Positions 14,309 to 21,148 of a stretch of 38,863 nucleotides of DNA are shown piece by piece. The DNA is from Erythrobacter sp. (GTDB lineage: Bacteria > Pseudomonadota > Alphaproteobacteria > Sphingomonadales > Sphingomonadaceae), in NCBI GenBank assembly GCA_024642335.1, contig JAHEBH010000022.1, forward strand, positions 1 to 38,863, given 5' to 3'. Below the pieces are notes generated by a model. It saw only the letters and a program-made list of their open reading frames with translations, searched no databases and had not been told where the DNA came from. Position 1 is the stretch's first letter. The number at the start of each line of letters is the position of its first letter. The translations under genes and the position numbers were made by a program.

Positions 14309-15115
14309 TTACCTCCCGCCATCCTCCCTCGCCGGAGCGAGCAGGGCGGGGAGCAATTCGGTATCGCGTTCGGCCTGAGGATCATCCACGCCGATCACGA
14401 TATCCTCCTGCTTCACATGATCGCGATAGGTGCCGTGAAGATGGTCCCATATGGCCACGCCGCTGCTCCAGTTGCTGTCCATTTCGGACAGTTTCCGGCT
14501 GTGGTGGATGCCGTGCATTGCGGGGGTGGTGACGACCTTTGACAGCGTCTTCTCCCATCCACCGGGCAGGCGCGTGTTCGAATGGTGGAACAGGACGGAC
14601 AGCAGGAAGAAGCCTTGCCAGCGCTTCAGCGTCTCCGGATCGACGCCGCTCACGCGTACCTGCACCAGCCGCCAGGGTAACGAAACGAGCATGTCGGCGA
14701 AATGGAAGCGGAGCGCCGTGCTCGCGTCCATATCGGGATCGATGTGGTGCACGCGGTGGAAGCGCCAGAGGAAAGGAACCTTATGCGTGGTGATGTGCCA
14801 GAGGTAAAAACCGTAATCCATCGCCAGGAAAGCCGCCGTCTTGCCCAGCATGCCGCCGCCCAGCCAGTGCTGGATGCCGCGCCCCTGTTCCGCATTTCGG
14901 CGGGCCACCGCCTGCGTGGCTGGAACCTCCGCGGCTGCGATCATCGCCTGGCAGGCCGCTCCCATCGCAACGTTGCGGGCGATGCGGGGCAAAGCCTCGC
15001 GCTTCTGCTTGCGCAAGGGCCGCGCCCGTTCGGCGAGCAGGATCGCACCCACCGCGCCTACGGTGACGGTCACGCCCAGCGCCTTGAGGAATCGCGATGC
15101 CATGCGCGCAATCAT
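14309..15115 (-). CDS. sterol desaturase/fatty acid hydroxylase family protein
   Basis: This 267-aa integral membrane di-iron enzyme has the histidine clusters of the family: HITTH, then HRVHH, an FHH in LFHHSN, and HGIHH. The spacing is typical of fatty acid hydroxylase superfamily proteins. Membrane segments are at about 5-25, 45-65, 95-110 and 165-185. The substrate is unknown; carotenoid, sterol-like and lipid hydroxylations are all known in the superfamily. The ATG at 15115 is followed by another in-frame ATG at 15103, and either could be the start. It is divergent from the arsenic-locus glycosyltransferases, with 41 bases between. Confidence 0.87.
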   Translation of the reverse strand: MIARMASRFLKALGVTVTVGAVGAILLAERARPLRKQKREALPRIARNVAMGAACQAMIAAAEVPATQAVARRNAEQGRGIQHWLGGGMLGKTAAFLAMDYGFYLWHITTHKVPFLWRFHRVHHIDPDMDASTALRFHFADMLVSLPWRLVQVRVSGVDPETLKRWQGFFLLSVLFHHSNTRLPGGWEKTLSKVVTTPAMHGIHHSRKLSEMDSNWSSGVAIWDHLHGTYRDHVKQEDIVIGVDDPQAERDTELLPALLAPAREDGGR

Positions 15116-15156: not shown

Positions 15157-15747
15157 ATGACCGCTGCCGCCAAGACGCCCAGGATCGCGCTCTTCGCCCG
15201 CTACCCGACACCGGGTGCGGCCAAGACGCGGTTGATCCCGGCTTTGGGCGCAGAAGGCGCTGCGCGGGTCCACCGCAGGCTGGTGGAACGCACCATTGCC
15301 ACGATCCGGACAAGCGGTGCGCCCTTTGCGCTGTGGTTCACCGGCGCGTCGCGGGCGGAGTTTGCCGCATGGCTGGGTGAGGATGTCGAACTCTTCGAAC
15401 AGGGGGATGGCGATCTGGGCGAACGTCTGGCCCGTGTGCCTGCACCTGCGATCCTTCTCGGGGCGGACGTACCAGACCTGCAGGCACAATATTTGCAGCT
15501 GGCGGTTGAAGGCCTGAAAGCGAACGATGCGGTGATCGGGCCGGCGCTTGATGGCGGCTATTATTTGCTGGGGTTCAACCGGTCAGTGCCATTTCTTTTT
15601 ACCGATATGCCCTGGGGCACAGGCGCTGTGTTGGAGGAGACAATGGCGCGGCTTGCCGCGCGTCGTTTGACTGTGCTTGTGCTCGAACCGCTGGGCGATT
15701 GCGACCGGCCCGAGGATCTGGAGTTTCATCCGGAACTGCTCGCTTGA
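15157..15747 (+). CDS. TIGR04282-type (DUF2064) arsenosugar-associated glycosyl/nucleotidyltransferase
   Basis: This 196-aa protein has a nucleotide-diphospho-sugar transferase fold. The N-terminal signature YPTPGAAKTRL is at 16-26, GADVPDL near 108 and the GPALDGGYYLLG block near 127-138. The family was named for its frequent place beside arsenosugar genes, but its reaction is unproven. The start is supported by an AGGAG seven bases upstream of the ATG. The stop overlaps the next start as TGATG. It is the first gene of the arsenic locus and sits back to back with the hydroxylase gene. Confidence 0.87.
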   Translation: MTAAAKTPRIALFARYPTPGAAKTRLIPALGAEGAARVHRRLVERTIATIRTSGAPFALWFTGASRAEFAAWLGEDVELFEQGDGDLGERLARVPAPAILLGADVPDLQAQYLQLAVEGLKANDAVIGPALDGGYYLLGFNRSVPFLFTDMPWGTGAVLEETMARLAARRLTVLVLEPLGDCDRPEDLEFHPELLA

Positions 15748-16469
15748 TGCGTATCTCGATTGTTATCCCCATGCTCAACGAAGCGAAGGCGCTGCCCCGC
15801 CTGCGAGAGGCACTGCAGGCGCTCGATCCCGCGCCTTGCGAGATACTCTGCGTCGATGGTGGCAGCGAAGATGGTTCGGCAGAGCTGGCGCAATCCTATG
15901 GCTGGCGCGTGGTGAAAAGCGAGCGCGGGCGCGGGCTGCAGATCAACACAGGTGTCGAGGCGGCAGAGGGCGATGCGGTGCTGGTGCTGCATGCCGATAG
16001 CTATCCGCCAGTTGATGCGATGGCGGTAATCGGGAGCACGCTTGCCGATCCCGGGATAGCGCTCGCCAGCTTCACCCCGATCATTCGCGGGCCCGAAAAG
16101 ACGCGCTGGGGCACCACGCTGCACAATTGGGCCAAGACCTGGTACGCGCCGCTGGTGTTCCGCCCGCACCTGTTCGTGCAGGGCGTGCGCCTGCTGTTCG
16201 GAGACCACGGCATGTTCTTCCGCCGCGCCGATTTCCTGAAAATCGGCGGGTGCGACCCTGCCGCCAAGGTGATGGAAGAGGCGGATCTGTGCATTGCAAT
16301 GGCGCGCTTGGGGAAGATCAGGCTTGTTCCGCGCGCCATCGAAACTTCCGACCGGCGCATTGCCGAATGGGGCGCGGTGAAAGCAAACTGGATCTACCTC
16401 AAGATGGGTTTTCTCTGGGCTACTGGAGCGCGGGAACGGCTGGAAAGGCATTATCCGGACGTGCGCTAG
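15747..16469 (+). CDS. TIGR04283-type family 2 glycosyltransferase (arsenosugar-associated)
   Basis: This 240-aa GT-A fold protein opens with IVIPMLNEAKALPRL and has a VDGGSEDGS nucleotide-sugar motif at 36-44. An HADS metal-binding equivalent of DxD lies at about 82-85. The C-terminal GGCDPAAKVMEEADLCIAMARLGK block is typical of the family. It is coupled to the preceding TIGR04282 gene by TGATG, and the two are often adjacent in arsenosugar loci. Its 3' end overlaps the convergent SDR gene by 50 bases. The donor and acceptor sugars are unknown. Confidence 0.9.
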   Translation: MRISIVIPMLNEAKALPRLREALQALDPAPCEILCVDGGSEDGSAELAQSYGWRVVKSERGRGLQINTGVEAAEGDAVLVLHADSYPPVDAMAVIGSTLADPGIALASFTPIIRGPEKTRWGTTLHNWAKTWYAPLVFRPHLFVQGVRLLFGDHGMFFRRADFLKIGGCDPAAKVMEEADLCIAMARLGKIRLVPRAIETSDRRIAEWGAVKANWIYLKMGFLWATGARERLERHYPDVR

Positions 16470-17475
16470 GCGCAGCCGGAAGATATCCCGATGCCATGCC
16501 ATAAGCGATCAGTCGTCCCAGCCAGGCGGTGTCGGTGGGAGGGCATGCGAGGCCGGTCAGCGTGCGGAAGTTCGTATCGTCGAAGCGCGGGGCGCGGGTG
16601 AAATAGGTGCCGAAAGTGCCGAGCATGCGCGCTGCGACGCGCTGCTCGGCTTGCGGGAGAATTGCGGGGTCGTAATTCCCTGGCATCACGCAAAGCGGGT
16701 CGGGAAAGTGCGGGATGCGGCGTACGCCCTGCGCCAGTTCGACCGATGGCAGCGGCGCGGAACCGGTGAGGTGGAAATAGCATCCCTGCGCCTGCTCCAT
16801 GCGTTCGGCGATACGCACCAGCCCTTCCGCCACATGGTCGATCGGCACAAGGTCAAGCGTGGAGGCAGGATCGGCGGGCAGGACCGAAACCTTGCCGCGC
16901 GCCATCAGGCGAATGACGTTGCAGAGCGAGGGGAATTCCCGGATTTTCCCCGTCTCGCTATCGCCGAGCGTGATCGACGGGCGGACAATGGCGAAGGGCA
17001 CGCCGCTTGCCGCCACCACGCCTTCGGCGCGGGCCTTGCTCGCCTCGTAACCATTGGCGAAGCGCGTTCCAGCGCGAACCGGCACCTCTTCAATCACACC
17101 ATCGTTGAGACCGCAGACATAGGCGGTGCTGACATGCAGGAAGCGCGCAGCGCAGGCCTTTGCGAACTCCGCCGCATTGCGTGTTCCCTGCACATTGTCG
17201 CGTTCCAGTTCCTCCTCTGGCGCATCGAATGCTAGCGAGGCAGCGCAATGCACGACAAGGTCGATAGCGTGGTCGAAGGGGTCGAGGCCCATCAGCGGCA
17301 GCGTGATGTCGCCTGACACCGTGCGGGCGACGGGTACGGGCCTGCCATCATTGCCACGCACTAATCTTGTGCGATGGACCATCGCGGTCACCGCGTGGCC
17401 GCGTGCAGAGAGACGTGCGCAGACTTCCCCGCCGATCAGTCCGGCAGCGCCGGTGACGAGGATCTTCAGCAGCAC
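16420..17475 (-). CDS. NAD(P)-dependent SDR/thioester-reductase-like epimerase family protein
   Basis: This 351-aa extended SDR starts at GTG (17475) with an AAGGGA Shine-Dalgarno five bases upstream. The Rossmann motif is GAAGLIG (9-15). The active-site YxxxK is in GYEASKARAE. The overall pattern is like the NAD-binding domain of thioester reductases and sugar epimerases (NDV-x-GT, VSTAYVCG, VPIDHVAEGLV). The start overlaps the arsM stop by ten bases, so it is the second gene of an arsM operon. Its product may modify or reduce the carbon part of an organo-arsenical, but that is inference from context. Confidence 0.85.
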   Translation of the reverse strand: MLLKILVTGAAGLIGGEVCARLSARGHAVTAMVHRTRLVRGNDGRPVPVARTVSGDITLPLMGLDPFDHAIDLVVHCAASLAFDAPEEELERDNVQGTRNAAEFAKACAARFLHVSTAYVCGLNDGVIEEVPVRAGTRFANGYEASKARAEGVVAASGVPFAIVRPSITLGDSETGKIREFPSLCNVIRLMARGKVSVLPADPASTLDLVPIDHVAEGLVRIAERMEQAQGCYFHLTGSAPLPSVELAQGVRRIPHFPDPLCVMPGNYDPAILPQAEQRVAARMLGTFGTYFTRAPRFDDTNFRTLTGLACPPTDTAWLGRLIAYGMASGYLPAAPSARPDNAFPAVPALQ

Positions 17476-18518
17476 GATGTCCCTTCGGACTTGGCGGGAT
17501 TGGCATCGCTCTGGCCAAATGGAACGGCGCTGCCGCATCCCGGAAAGACGCCGAAATGTGTGTCGAAACTGCCGATGAAGTCGAAATGCGGGGCCAGCCG
17601 CGTTTCGGCCAGCATTAGCCAGCTATTCCCGCAGACAGGGAATATGCGTCCGCGCTCGATGGCGTGATGGTTGTCGAGGTGGAACATCTGCTCCTGCCCC
17701 GGCACCGTGCCCCGGTAGATCACGGCCTGGCCGTAATCTTCGCATTGCGGCTCCAGCCCGGCCAGTTTGAACAGGCGGTAGGTGGCGGAAACAAAGGAAA
17801 TGCCATCCAGCTTCTCCGCCACTTCGGCGTCGTTGATGCCTAGTGGGCGGTCCGTCACCAGGCGCGGATCGGCAAAGCCCGCGCGTTTGGCCAGCATGTC
17901 GAAATCGCCCCAATAGAGCGCGCCGGACAGGCATTCGCCATGCAGGACCGGATCGCTCAGCAGATGCACAGGTACGCGGCGGTCAGCATAGACATCGGAG
18001 AAATAGAGCTCGCCGCCCGGCTTCAGCAGGCGGTGCGCGGCGCGAAAGACCGCTTCCTTGTCGGCGACAAGATTGATCACGCAATTGGAGACGATGACGT
18101 CGAAGCTTGCGGGCTCAAGGTCGAGCGCATCCAGCTGCTCGATATCGCCTTCCACAAAGCGGACGTTGCGGTATCCGAAGCGCTCGGCATGCCAATCAAG
18201 GTGGCTGTTCGCCACGGCAAGCTGCTCGGGCGTGGCATCGACGCCGGTGACAGAGCCATTGGCTCCTACCAGCTGTGCCAGCAGGTATGCGTCCTGACCG
18301 CTGCCCGATCCCAGGTCGAGCACATGGCAGCCTTCGACCGCCTGCGGGACCACCAGGCCGCAACCGTAATAGCGGGCCTTCACTACCGGGTGGACGTTCT
18401 TCAAAGCCTCCAGAATGTCCGGTGCGGGCATTTCGAGTGTGCAGCAGGCATCGGTGCGCAAATCCTCGCTGCCGCCAAGCACCTTGCCATAATAATCCTG
18501 CGCATTCTGGAGATTCAT
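17466..18518 (-). CDS. arsM: arsenite S-adenosylmethyltransferase
   Basis: This 350-aa protein matches the full-length algal/bacterial ArsM type, which methylates As(III) using SAM and thiols. The SAM motif is VLDLGSGSGQD (67-77). Four cysteine sites match the arsenic-binding cysteines of the family: C25/C26 in DACCTLE, C53 in YYGCGL, C146 in SNCVINL and C196 in GECLSGALYW. The C-terminal domain carries CEDYGQAV, FPVCGNSWLML and HFGVFPGCG, as in the long form. The protein ends in a vicinal Cys-Cys. ATG 18518 is preferred over the in-frame 18539 because AAGGA lies ten bases upstream of it and the product begins MNLQNAQDYYGKVL. Confidence 0.93.
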   Translation of the reverse strand: MNLQNAQDYYGKVLGGSEDLRTDACCTLEMPAPDILEALKNVHPVVKARYYGCGLVVPQAVEGCHVLDLGSGSGQDAYLLAQLVGANGSVTGVDATPEQLAVANSHLDWHAERFGYRNVRFVEGDIEQLDALDLEPASFDVIVSNCVINLVADKEAVFRAAHRLLKPGGELYFSDVYADRRVPVHLLSDPVLHGECLSGALYWGDFDMLAKRAGFADPRLVTDRPLGINDAEVAEKLDGISFVSATYRLFKLAGLEPQCEDYGQAVIYRGTVPGQEQMFHLDNHHAIERGRIFPVCGNSWLMLAETRLAPHFDFIGSFDTHFGVFPGCGSAVPFGQSDANPAKSEGTSCC

Positions 18519-18553
18519 GAAACCGATGATCCTTCGCATCCGAATTGGGGGAC

Positions 18554-18570
18554 ATAGACAGGAATTCTAT
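18554..18570. promoter_or_regulatory. candidate operator in the arsM/oxidoreductase divergent promoter
   Basis: ATAGA and TCTAT half-sites are separated by seven bases, in the 87-base region between the divergent arsM and FAD oxidoreductase starts. The size is right for a small dimeric repressor such as an ArsR-type regulator. No arsR gene is present in the window, and the half-sites are only 5 bp. Confidence 0.25.
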
Positions 18571-18605
18571 CGCTTGGCACGGCTTTTCGGTTACTTTGAG
18601 GTCAG

Positions 18606-20021
18606 ATGGATTATTCGCATGATGTGATCGTGATCGGCGGCGGCGCTGCGGGGTTGACCGCGGCGGGCGGTTGCGCGCTGTTCGGCCTCAAGGTCGCGTT
18701 GATCGAAAAGGGCGCGATGGGCGGCGAATGCCTCAACAATGGCTGCGTGCCGTCCAAAGCGCTCATCTCCTCTGCCCGCCGCGCAGCGGAGGCCCGCGAG
18801 GAAAAGCGGCTGGGGGTGCAACTGGCAGCGCCGGTGGTCGAATGGGCAGGCGTCCACAAGCACATTCACGGCGCCATCGCCGCCATCGCCCCGCACGATT
18901 CGCAGGAACGGTTCGAGGAGATGGGCTGCGAAGTCATTCGCGATTACGCCCGATTGGTGGGCCGCCATACGGTCGAAGTCGCAGGTCGCAGGATTTCTGC
19001 GCCGCGTATCGTGATCGCTACCGGGTCGGAGCCTTTCATTCCCCCAATCGACGGGCTCGACAGCGTCCCATTTCTTACCAACGAAAACCTGTTCGACTTG
19101 GCTGAACTGCCGGTGCATCTCGTCATTATCGGTGGCGGGGTGATCGGCATGGAAATGGGCCAGAGCTTCCGGCGTCTGGGCAGCGAGGTGACCATCATCA
19201 ACCCGGGACGGGTCATGGGCCGCGATGATACGGAATCGGTTGCCGTGGTGGTCGCGCAGATGGAGCGTGAGGGGGTGCGCTTCGTGGATGGGAAGGCCAC
19301 GAAGGTTGGTGGCGCTTCGGCAGCGATCACCGTCCATACCGATGGTGGCGAACTAATTTCCGGATCGCACCTGCTGGTGGCGGTAGGCCGCAAGGCGCGC
19401 GTTTCCGGCTACGGACTTGAGGAGCTGGGGCTGGAACTTGGCCGTAACGGGATCAAGGCCGATGCCCGCCGCCGCGCTTCGCTGAAGCATATCTACGCCA
19501 TCGGCGATTGCCGCGAGGGGCCGCGCCTGACGCATGTCTCGGGCTATGAAGGCTCCAACGTCGTGCTCGAAATCGCGCTCGGCCTTCCGACCAAGGTCGA
19601 TTGGCGCGCGCTGCCCTGGTGCACCTACACCGAGCCTGAAGTGGCGCAGATCGGCATGACCGAGGACGAGGCGCGGCAGCAGCACGGCGATGCCATCAGC
19701 GTTGTCCGCGAGAGCTTCGACCACAATGATCGCGCCGTGGCCGAAGGCGAAACTGCCGGGCACATGAAGCTGGTGCTGAAGGGCAAGAAGGTGGTCGGCG
19801 CCAGTATTGTCGGCAAGAATGCCGGTGAGCTGCTGCTGCCGCTGACGCAGGCCATCACCGGGAAGAGCAGTACATTCGCGCTGGGCGGGGCGGTGATTTC
19901 CTATCCGACCCGGTCCGAGATCACCAAGGCGCTGGCCTTCAAGGCATGGGAGCCGACCGTCTTCGGCGGCCTGCCGAAGAAATGGGCGGCACTGATCGCA
20001 CGGCTGAGGCGGATGTTCTGA
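18606..20021 (+). CDS. MerA/dihydrolipoamide dehydrogenase-like FAD-dependent disulfide oxidoreductase
   Basis: This 471-aa class I pyridine nucleotide-disulfide oxidoreductase has an FAD motif GGGAAG (11-16). The redox-active disulfide is C42/C47 in GECLNNGCVPSK. The NAD(P) motif is GGGVIGME, and the second FAD motif is AIGDC. The C-terminal active-site HPTxxE of lipoamide dehydrogenase is replaced by YPTRSE, as in the MerA-like subfamily of unknown substrate. Dihydrolipoamide dehydrogenase activity is therefore unlikely. A GAGG precedes the ATG by four bases. It diverges from arsM and is coupled by TGATG to the radical SAM gene. In this context it may reduce an arsenical or keep dithiols reduced. 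Confidence 0.9.
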   Translation: MDYSHDVIVIGGGAAGLTAAGGCALFGLKVALIEKGAMGGECLNNGCVPSKALISSARRAAEAREEKRLGVQLAAPVVEWAGVHKHIHGAIAAIAPHDSQERFEEMGCEVIRDYARLVGRHTVEVAGRRISAPRIVIATGSEPFIPPIDGLDSVPFLTNENLFDLAELPVHLVIIGGGVIGMEMGQSFRRLGSEVTIINPGRVMGRDDTESVAVVVAQMEREGVRFVDGKATKVGGASAAITVHTDGGELISGSHLLVAVGRKARVSGYGLEELGLELGRNGIKADARRRASLKHIYAIGDCREGPRLTHVSGYEGSNVVLEIALGLPTKVDWRALPWCTYTEPEVAQIGMTEDEARQQHGDAISVVRESFDHNDRAVAEGETAGHMKLVLKGKKVVGASIVGKNAGELLLPLTQAITGKSSTFALGGAVISYPTRSEITKALAFKAWEPTVFGGLPKKWAALIARLRRMF

Positions 20022-21016
20022 TGGCGACGCGGTCGAAAAGCCGGAATGTGCCCGCCGGGCCTTCCCCGTTCGCCCTGCCGGAAAAGCAGCCGCTCAGGCC
20101 CGGAAAGTTTGTCGATCCTGCCAAGACCGCCGATGGTTCGCCGCGGGCCACGGTTGCGCTGGAGAGGCTCGACACGCTGTGGCTCAACACCGGCACACTG
20201 TGCAATCTCGCCTGCGCCAGTTGCTATATCGACAGTTCGCCCACCAATGACGCTCTGATCTACCTGACAGCGCAGGAGGCCGCGCGCTTCCTGGACGAGA
20301 TCACGTTGTCAGGGCGCCCGGTGCGCGAGATCGGCTTTACCGGCGGCGAACCGTTCATGAACCCGCAGTTCCCCGCCATGCTGGAGGATACCCTGTCGCG
20401 CGGGCATGAGGTGCTTGTCCTCACCAATGCGATGAAGCCCATGCGGCGGCACGAGGCGGCGCTGCTGGCACTGAAGGAACGGTTCGACAGCAAGCTCACC
20501 CTGCGCGTTTCAATCGATCACCATACGCAGCAAGTGCATGAGGGGGAGCGCGGCGCCAACAGCTGGGCGCCAATGATCGAAGGGCTGCAGTGGCTCTCTG
20601 CCAATGGATTCTCAATTGCCGCCGCCGGAAGGAGCCTGGCGGGTGAGGGCGAGTCGGCAGCGCGCGATGCCTATGCTCAGCTCTTTGCGGGCGAAGCCAT
20701 TAACATCGATGCGCATGACCCTGCCCGTCTGGTGATCTTCCCCGAGATGGATGCCAGCGCAGACGTTCCCGAGATCAGCGAGGCCTGCTGGAGTATTCTT
20801 GGCAAGAGACCGGGCGACATCATGTGCGCATCGAGCCGCATGGTCGTCCACCGCAAGGGCGAGGGTGCCGCACGCGTCGTCGCCTGCACCTTGCTGCCCT
20901 ATCACCCTCAATTCGACCTGGGCGCCACGCTGGCAGAGGCGGACAGACCCGTCGCACTCAACCACCCGCATTGCGCGCGCTTCTGCGTGCTGGGCGGGGC
21001 GAGCTGTTCGGCCTGA
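20021..21016 (+). CDS. radical SAM protein of the arsenic locus, not ArsS-like
   Basis: This 331-aa radical SAM enzyme has the CxxxCxxC cluster site at C61, C65 and C68 (GTLCNLACASCYID). FTGGEPF follows at 106-112. Further cysteines at C269, C289, C318, C322 and C329 in the C-terminal 65 residues could hold an auxiliary iron-sulfur cluster, SPASM/twitch style. It lacks the TNMPI and C-terminal DCDFNQ-type blocks I associate with ArsS, the radical SAM enzyme of arsenosugar synthesis. It also lacks the unusual cysteine motif of ArsL. Its partner gene and the ArsM cluster suggest a role on a methylated arsenical. A peptide or lipid substrate is also possible. Confidence 0.88.
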   Translation: MATRSKSRNVPAGPSPFALPEKQPLRPGKFVDPAKTADGSPRATVALERLDTLWLNTGTLCNLACASCYIDSSPTNDALIYLTAQEAARFLDEITLSGRPVREIGFTGGEPFMNPQFPAMLEDTLSRGHEVLVLTNAMKPMRRHEAALLALKERFDSKLTLRVSIDHHTQQVHEGERGANSWAPMIEGLQWLSANGFSIAAAGRSLAGEGESAARDAYAQLFAGEAINIDAHDPARLVIFPEMDASADVPEISEACWSILGKRPGDIMCASSRMVVHRKGEGAARVVACTLLPYHPQFDLGATLAEADRPVALNHPHCARFCVLGGASCSA

Positions 21017-21074: not shown

Positions 21075-21148
21075 TGCCCCGTCGTCTAATGGTAAGACTA
21101 CGGACTCTGACTCCGTCAATTGAGGTTCGAATCCTCACGGGGCATCCA
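21075..21148 (+). tRNA. tRNA-Gln (anticodon CTG)
   Basis: A full cloverleaf can be drawn. The acceptor is TGCCCCG/CGGGGCA. The D arm is GTC/GAC around an AATGGTAA loop. The anticodon stem ACGGA/TCCGT has loop CTCTGAC, giving anticodon CTG, which reads CAG. The T arm is TGAGG-TTCGAAT-CCTCA. The 3' end encodes T and CCA. It stands alone between the radical SAM and LOG genes. Confidence 0.96.

Follow-up and report, generated by a model that had tools for sequence, protein, structure and literature searches.

In oxo-arsenosugar biosynthesis a radical S-adenosylmethionine (SAM) enzyme adenosylates arsenic, as described in passages of PMC12159101, and in arsinothricin biosynthesis another transfers an aminocarboxypropyl group, according to passages of PMC8552651. 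A tree of bacterial AS3MT proteins given in passages of PMC5398495 includes Erythrobacter and Ruegeria; AS3MT-type arsenite methyltransferases (ArsM) are thus already known from such bacteria, and in those passages the cluster surrounding the gene in the present case is undescribed. This cluster was analysed in Erythrobacter sp. (assembly GCA_024642335.1, contig JAHEBH010000022.1), within a stretch of 38,863 nucleotides referred to as a whole as the window. A preliminary description of the DNA had listed six genes at positions 15157-21016, encoding transferases of the TIGR04282 and TIGR04283 families, a short-chain dehydrogenase/reductase (SDR), ArsM, a MerA-like flavoprotein and a radical SAM enzyme (hereafter rSAM), and all six, with their open frames, were confirmed at those positions (Table 1). 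Tentatively, and with a confidence that falls a little short of even, we favour the reading that the locus encodes a variant organoarsenic (arsenosugar-type) pathway in which ArsM is optional.

The absence of ArsS, the radical SAM enzyme of arsenosugar loci, had been claimed from the locus itself and was found to hold across the whole 2.66 Mb assembly, in which no protein scored above the cut-off of the ArsS model (TIGR04167, 300 bits) and the strongest match was the window rSAM, at 63 bits. No DUF3641 domain (PF12345) was detected in the C-terminus of rSAM at an E value of 0.01; the ArsS of locus L195, used as a control, gave 185 bits. On the grounds of this low score and the missing domain, the identification of rSAM as ArsS was rejected. 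The protein belongs to an uncharacterised but widespread family of the SPASM/twitch type, as judged from its CxxxCxxC motif, its C-terminal cysteines and a matching fold (AlphaFold model, mean predicted local distance difference test score 91.8). Its best solved folds were SkfB, BlsE, SuiB and DesII, with EpeE also among the top structural matches, but many SPASM/twitch enzymes were found at a similar Z and no single reaction was indicated; no solved ArsS was among the fold-search matches listed, a result to which no weight was given. The rSAM alignment comprised the window protein and 50 of 69 non-redundant proteins, drawn from 78 full-length proteins among 80 loci, the top 80 out of at least 589. 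Both the Rv1681 model and the ArsS model matched every one of the 51 rSAM proteins scanned, the ArsS model with a best E value of 2e-20, second of all families by this measure, and both matches were confined to the core domain.

The further proposal of a variant pathway in which a different radical SAM enzyme takes the place of ArsS was borne out in part, in that co-occurrence with TIGR04283, and in no sampled genome with ArsS, gives rSAM an apparent slot, whereas the arsenic product is something that we infer. Of 298 genomes belonging to the same family as the source genome, 83 carry rSAM at 56% identity or more, below which the matches drop to 27% (E 2e-7). TIGR04283, called at E values up to 1e-30, was found in the identical 83. 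The two genes lay no more than 12 kb apart in 65 of these genomes and farther apart in the other 18, a few of which have them on short contigs. Ten genera contain both rSAM-positive and rSAM-negative genomes; in these the genes are linked and could have come and gone as one block, and the unlinked cases therefore carry more weight. In a class sample of 240 Alphaproteobacteria, 71 genomes have rSAM (E up to 1e-50), 90 have TIGR04283 (E up to 1e-35) and 67 have the two together (Fisher p about 3e-34, uncorrected for relatedness and lifestyle); linkage of the pair was demonstrable in 9 of the 67, many of the assemblies being fragmented. One of the 71 (G412) carries a divergent rSAM copy of 34% identity. 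Genome-wide transferase co-occurrence was counted for TIGR04283 alone. ArsS was present in two of the 240 genomes, neither of them rSAM-positive. In a phylum-level set of 68 genomes, which partly overlaps the class sample, 34 have ArsS, four have the rSAM family and none has both, although the lack of a joint genome is statistically weak because rSAM and ArsS are split by class. These distributions, together with the partner genes of alphaproteobacterial ArsS loci described below, suggest that rSAM probably fills the slot of ArsS in Alphaproteobacteria. A side observation was that rSAM was missing from 23 of the 90 class-sample genomes with TIGR04283, and 21 of those 23 also had no ArsS at the thresholds used.

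The ArsM protein was, as previously described, full-length and equipped with all four arsenic-site cysteines: C32, C60, C153 and C203 were invariant in an alignment of 15 proteins (the window protein and 14 of 30 ArsM proteins), as was the terminal CC, and three of the four cysteine motifs were present in all 46 near-full-length matches, window protein included. The conserved start is probably Met8, at position 18518. The score against the NCBIfam arsenite methyltransferase model NF008823 was 162 bits, short of the cut-off of 263, while the best solved relative, 5evj, is an arsenite methyltransferase and was matched at 344 bits; the protein was therefore treated as an ArsM lying outside the range of NF008823. 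Orthologues (at least 66% identity) were found in 56 genomes of the family sample, all of them rSAM-positive, and lay no more than 12 kb from rSAM in 49. Of the 240 class-sample genomes, 17 have an ArsM match to NF008823 at E values up to 1e-33, and 13 of these also carry rSAM (p 5e-5); with the window's own genome removed, the count was 12 of 16 (p 1e-4).

Co-conservation of the six families, which the preliminary description had implied, was real in many relatives but did not extend to ArsM as a fixed member. All six genes were present at 19 of 30 hand-picked ArsM-bearing loci from the same family, for which reason their linkage cannot be put down to chance, and six of seven families, without the SDR, were found at the distant locus L157. 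The six genes as an obligate unit were nevertheless rejected, as ArsM has been repeatedly lost or gained and the MerA-like and SDR genes are absent at several loci. ArsM is an optional member of the cluster.

Neighbourhoods were compared in hand-chosen sets of 60 regions from the family sample, 40 from the class sample and 20 ArsS loci. Locus counts rest on tblastn, simple open reading frame (ORF) calling having mis-called some ORFs, and VTT, MTAP, phosphoesterase and DUF3047 genes were identified by Pfam and NCBIfam scans of representatives. The 143 rSAM loci examined included six second copies, and the counts use the 137 distinct genes. Within 6 kb of these, TIGR04282 and TIGR04283 were each found 70 times, the MerA-like gene 60, SDR 55, ArsM 36, MTAP 25, and VTT and phosphoesterase 9 times each. 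For a near/far control, DNA within 4.5 kb of rSAM was compared with DNA beyond it, the loci being split into sphingomonad-type and other by the organism names of their records. At the 73 sphingomonad-type loci MTAP was found 23 times near and never far; at the 64 others, with 525 kb near and 331 kb far, the counts were 9 and 0 for phosphoesterase, 13 and 1 for each of TIGR04282 and TIGR04283, 5 and 1 for VTT, and 6 and 1 for the MerA-like gene. Several of these partners are held in common with ArsS in the same class, since both alphaproteobacterial ArsS loci (L195 and L198, from one genus) have VTT and MerA-like, MTAP, TIGR04283 and phosphoesterase genes flanking ArsS. At another ArsS locus, L213, a hydroxylase, TIGR04283 and TIGR04282 lie nearby.

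The association of ArsM with rSAM was also seen far from the window, the two genes adjoining in two distant genomes. In one alphaproteobacterial family (G462, locus L157), rSAM, ArsM, VTT, MerA-like, hydroxylase, TIGR04282 and TIGR04283 genes lie together, the TIGR04283 relative scoring 279 bits, well above the cut-off of 182; in another (G412, locus L158), ArsM, TIGR04282, the divergent rSAM and TIGR04283 (174 bits) stand in a row. Other arrangements were noted in passing. In one genus (L055, L057, L059 and L061) a block of MerA-like, ArsM and SDR genes lies apart from rSAM and the transferases, and each of these genomes keeps rSAM, TIGR04283 and ArsM. In Nitrococcus (L126 and L151), rSAM, DUF3047 and a long MerA-like gene with a VTT match are adjacent, giving a gammaproteobacterial version of the neighbourhood. 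In other Alphaproteobacteria (L163, L167, L170, L177 and L180), TIGR04282 and TIGR04283 lie near ORFs that, judged by their N-termini, look MoaB-like or electron transfer flavoprotein (ETF)-ubiquinone oxidoreductase-like.

Under the favoured reading of a variant organoarsenic pathway, ArsM would make mono- or dimethylarsenite, or methylarsenite would alternatively be taken from outside, and rSAM, in the slot of ArsS, would attach to methyl-As(III) a group derived from SAM, most likely 5'-deoxyadenosyl. Removal of adenine could then fall to an MTAP-like phosphorylase, whose gene is unlinked here, on another contig (C102) of the same genome, and stands beside rSAM in a minority of relatives. The two transferases, TIGR04282 and TIGR04283, may hand the arsenoribosyl unit on to an acceptor molecule. 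The SDR and a neighbouring fatty-acid hydroxylase may tailor this acceptor or a lipid, and the MerA-like flavoprotein may supply thiol or As(III) reduction. What was observed are the gene identities, the absence of ArsS, the joint occurrence of rSAM and TIGR04283, an intact ArsM and the partner genes in common with alphaproteobacterial ArsS loci; the chemical steps proposed for rSAM, the transferases, SDR, flavoprotein and hydroxylase, like the presence of arsenic in the product, are assigned provisionally.

A number of observations weigh against this pathway. The top NCBIfam match of rSAM is the Rv1681 family (NF049973; 85 bits, cut-off 380) and not ArsS, the protein is without the DUF3641 domain of ArsS, and its closest folds are those of peptide maturases and of sugar or nucleoside enzymes. 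No Acr3 efflux gene was found in the window's genome (of the arsenic exporters, Acr3 alone was searched for), and in the open-licence literature no description was found of rSAM with these transferases, nor any that ties these loci to arsenic. Outside sphingomonads, ArsM lay within 4.5 kb of rSAM at two of the 64 loci, with one far occurrence. Furthermore, the supposition that the partner set is common to ArsS loci at large was weakened on checking. By tblastn, the 21 ArsS loci had a MerA-like gene near 5, ArsM near 4, TIGR04283 and VTT near 3 each, MTAP and phosphoesterase near 2 each and TIGR04282 near 1, and at 10 of the 21 ArsS stood alone, with none of the partner genes. At the 19 of these loci outside Alphaproteobacteria, transferases were near one, a MerA-like gene near three and MTAP near none; hidden Markov model (HMM) scans of 82 ORFs around the 19 were in agreement and gave ArsM in 5 and a MerA-like protein in 3, and TIGR04282 and TIGR04283 were absent from the 25 commonest families listed for those ORFs. 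The shared partner set therefore rests mainly on two loci of one genus, and as a result our confidence in the favoured reading and in its wider form, given below, was lowered, while that in the following alternative was raised.

In this alternative, which we take to be a serious possibility without thinking it probable, the core of rSAM, TIGR04282, TIGR04283, MerA-like protein, SDR and hydroxylase makes an arsenic-free glycoconjugate or a modified nucleoside or sugar lipid, the 'arsenosugar' names of the transferases are over-annotation, and ArsM serves detoxification, its gene having repeatedly joined and left the locus. Consistent with this, ArsM was not detected in 27 of the 83 rSAM genomes of the family sample or in 58 of the 71 of the class sample, and rSAM, MerA-like, SDR and both transferase genes were kept at 15 of 25 ArsM-less loci. 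Fitting the presence of ArsM to a tree of 55 rSAM proteins takes at least 15 changes, 7 of which the starred branches force, and its clustering on the tree is only weak (37 of 500 shuffles were as low). This tree excludes the partial rSAM of L065, a gene (G037) that the co-occurrence counts do include. BlsE and DesII, whose substrates are sugar-nucleosides or nucleotide-sugars, are among the closest solved folds of rSAM. Against an arsenic-free core stand the confinement of ArsM orthologues to rSAM genomes in the family sample and the adjoining of ArsM and rSAM in two distant lineages. ArsM is, moreover, inconstant beside ArsS as well, by both the tblastn and the HMM counts given above, and at the threshold used neither of the two class-sample genomes with ArsS has ArsM.

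We think it unlikely that the locus combines two unrelated modules, with ArsM, SDR and the MerA-like protein as a unit for the detoxification of arsenic or for thiol detoxification, and rSAM with the two transferases as a separate pathway. Such a division would fit the genus in which the first three genes lie away from rSAM and the transferases, as well as loci L028, L031 and L068, where rSAM and the transferases stand alone; however, the split genomes still hold both modules, ArsM accompanies rSAM and the transferases with no close MerA-like or SDR gene at L050, and it does so in the absence of the MerA-like gene at L042, L051 and L052. That rSAM matures a peptide, in the manner of enzymes acting on ribosomally synthesized and post-translationally modified peptides, is suggested by SkfB, SuiB and EpeE among its top structural matches, but a common fold is no proof of function, and the constant genomic partners of rSAM are transferases; this role is considered very improbable. 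The gene tables of the loci covered ORFs of at least 70-80 codons, a range beyond which shorter precursor genes fall.

Read from the sequence, the six genes form three two-gene units, GTA-GTB and MerA-like-rSAM on the forward strand and ArsM-SDR on the reverse. In the GTA/GTB and MerA-like/rSAM pairs the stop codon overlaps the next start (TGATG in both), GTB and SDR are convergent with overlapping 3' ends, and SDR begins with a GTG codon, its start lying some 10 bases inside the 3' end of arsM. The SDR motif YxxSK was present in all 64 near-full-length matches, the window included, and GxxGxxG in 63. Among the best-matching loci, named records include Aurantiacibacter, Pseudopontixanthobacter, Qipengyuania and Citromicrobium. 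The fatty-acid hydroxylase gene (FAH), which is divergent from GTA and was absent from the earlier gene list, lies beside the cluster in many relatives, though not all, with a copy of 31% identity at L157. This recurrence gives a hint that the acceptor may be a lipid.

Table 1. Features of the Erythrobacter sp. locus, in window positions, with strand and supporting matches.
Feature	Assignment	Position	Strand	Support
FAH	Fatty-acid hydroxylase / OlsE-like superfamily	14309..15115	-	PF04116 76 bits, above cut-off; OlsE 74 bits, below cut-off
GTA	TIGR04282 (CofC-like, DUF2064) transferase	15157..15747	+	185 bits, cut-off 134
GTB	TIGR04283 (GT2, MftF-like) transferase	15747..16469	+	172 bits, slightly below cut-off 182
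SDR	Extended short-chain dehydrogenase/reductase (NAD_binding_4/Epimerase)	16420..17475	-	PF07993 116 bits; PF01370
ArsM	Full-length AS3MT-type arsenite S-adenosylmethyltransferase	17466..18539	-	5evj 344 bits, 4fr0 248 bits
GGTTAC element	Divergent arsM-merA intergenic region, 5' of the MerA-like gene	18589..18594	+	
MerA-like	FAD/NAD(P) disulfide oxidoreductase (PRK06370-like)	18606..20021	+	PF07992/PF02852
rSAM	Radical SAM enzyme, CxxxCxxC and further C-terminal cysteines	20021..21016	+	SPASM/twitch-like auxiliary cluster region
tRNA-Gln(CTG)	Flank beside the rSAM end, outside the pathway	21075..21148	+	ARAGORN

The disulfide oxidoreductase had been regarded as an addition special to this variant, a view that could not be upheld, as a MerA-like gene also flanks ArsS at 5 of the 21 ArsS loci. 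In the MerA-like protein, CxxxxC was present in all 74 near-full-length matches and a tyrosine replaced the dimer-dyad histidine in 74 of 75 aligned rows (the window being counted twice). MerA carries C-terminal vicinal cysteines. Identification of the window protein as MerA was rejected, its score against TIGR02053 being 303 bits against a cut-off of 454 and the C-terminal cysteine pair being absent. In the divergent promoter region, GTTAC/GTAAC was found in 39 of 54 distinct but non-independent, related intergenic sequences, against 8.2 expected from shuffles that keep base content only. In relatives, whether or not they have ArsM, the longer GGTTAC/GTAACC is mostly found 13-35 bases upstream of the MerA-like gene. 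GGTTAC occurs seven times in the whole window. The element upstream of this gene may be the site of a shared regulator; a search of the divergent promoter for PhoB boxes gave scattered half-sites and nothing more.

In a wider form of the arsenosugar-type reading, which we hold to be possible but doubtful, Alphaproteobacteria would possess a second, non-ArsS radical SAM family that makes the As-C bond in compounds of the arsenosugar type. As about three in ten of the sampled genomes (71 of 240) carry this family, often without ArsM, complex organoarsenicals would be assembled by many bacteria from the methylarsenic of others. If rSAM does replace ArsS, the reach of arsenosugar-type chemistry goes well past the organisms with ArsS to take in a large share of Alphaproteobacteria, many Erythrobacter-type genera included, and models of the arsenic cycle would have to account for it. 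If the product is instead non-arsenical, the 'arsenosugar' names attached to TIGR04282 and TIGR04283 misdirect annotation in many genomes. With either outcome an orphan radical SAM family gains a constant genomic partner, and thereby a testable pathway.

Of the known systems with which the locus can be compared, MerA shares with the window flavoprotein the FAD fold, the CxxxxC redox pair and a tyrosine in place of the dimer-interface histidine; the window protein differs in scoring below the MerA cut-off and in being without the C-terminal cysteine pair. The Rv1681-family radical SAM proteins provide the best match of rSAM, yet one that falls far below the family cut-off and covers the core domain only. 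The arsQML arsinothricin cluster of Burkholderia, as presented in passages of PMC8552651, is alike in placing ArsM beside a radical SAM enzyme, which in that known case forms a C-As bond, and unlike in that the six window genes include no transporter while transferases, SDR and flavoprotein are extra. The window ArsM scored 137 bits against the arsinothricin-type model NF040538, below the cut-off of 500. ArsS itself differs from rSAM in its C-terminus, which in rSAM is a cysteine-rich region of its own in place of DUF3641, and the rSAM locus adds to the ArsS pathway an SDR and an AS3MT-type ArsM; ArsS loci outside Alphaproteobacteria mostly have no transferases nearby. The radical SAM core of the window protein is, however, distantly ArsS-like, the VTT/MerA-like, MTAP and phosphoesterase neighbours of alphaproteobacterial ArsS loci recur at rSAM loci, and the locus resembles the ArsS/ArsM arsenosugar pathway of cyanobacteria and TIGR04167 loci in combining a radical SAM enzyme with TIGR04282 and TIGR04283, the window match to TIGR04283 lying slightly below its cut-off, and ArsM is optional in both.

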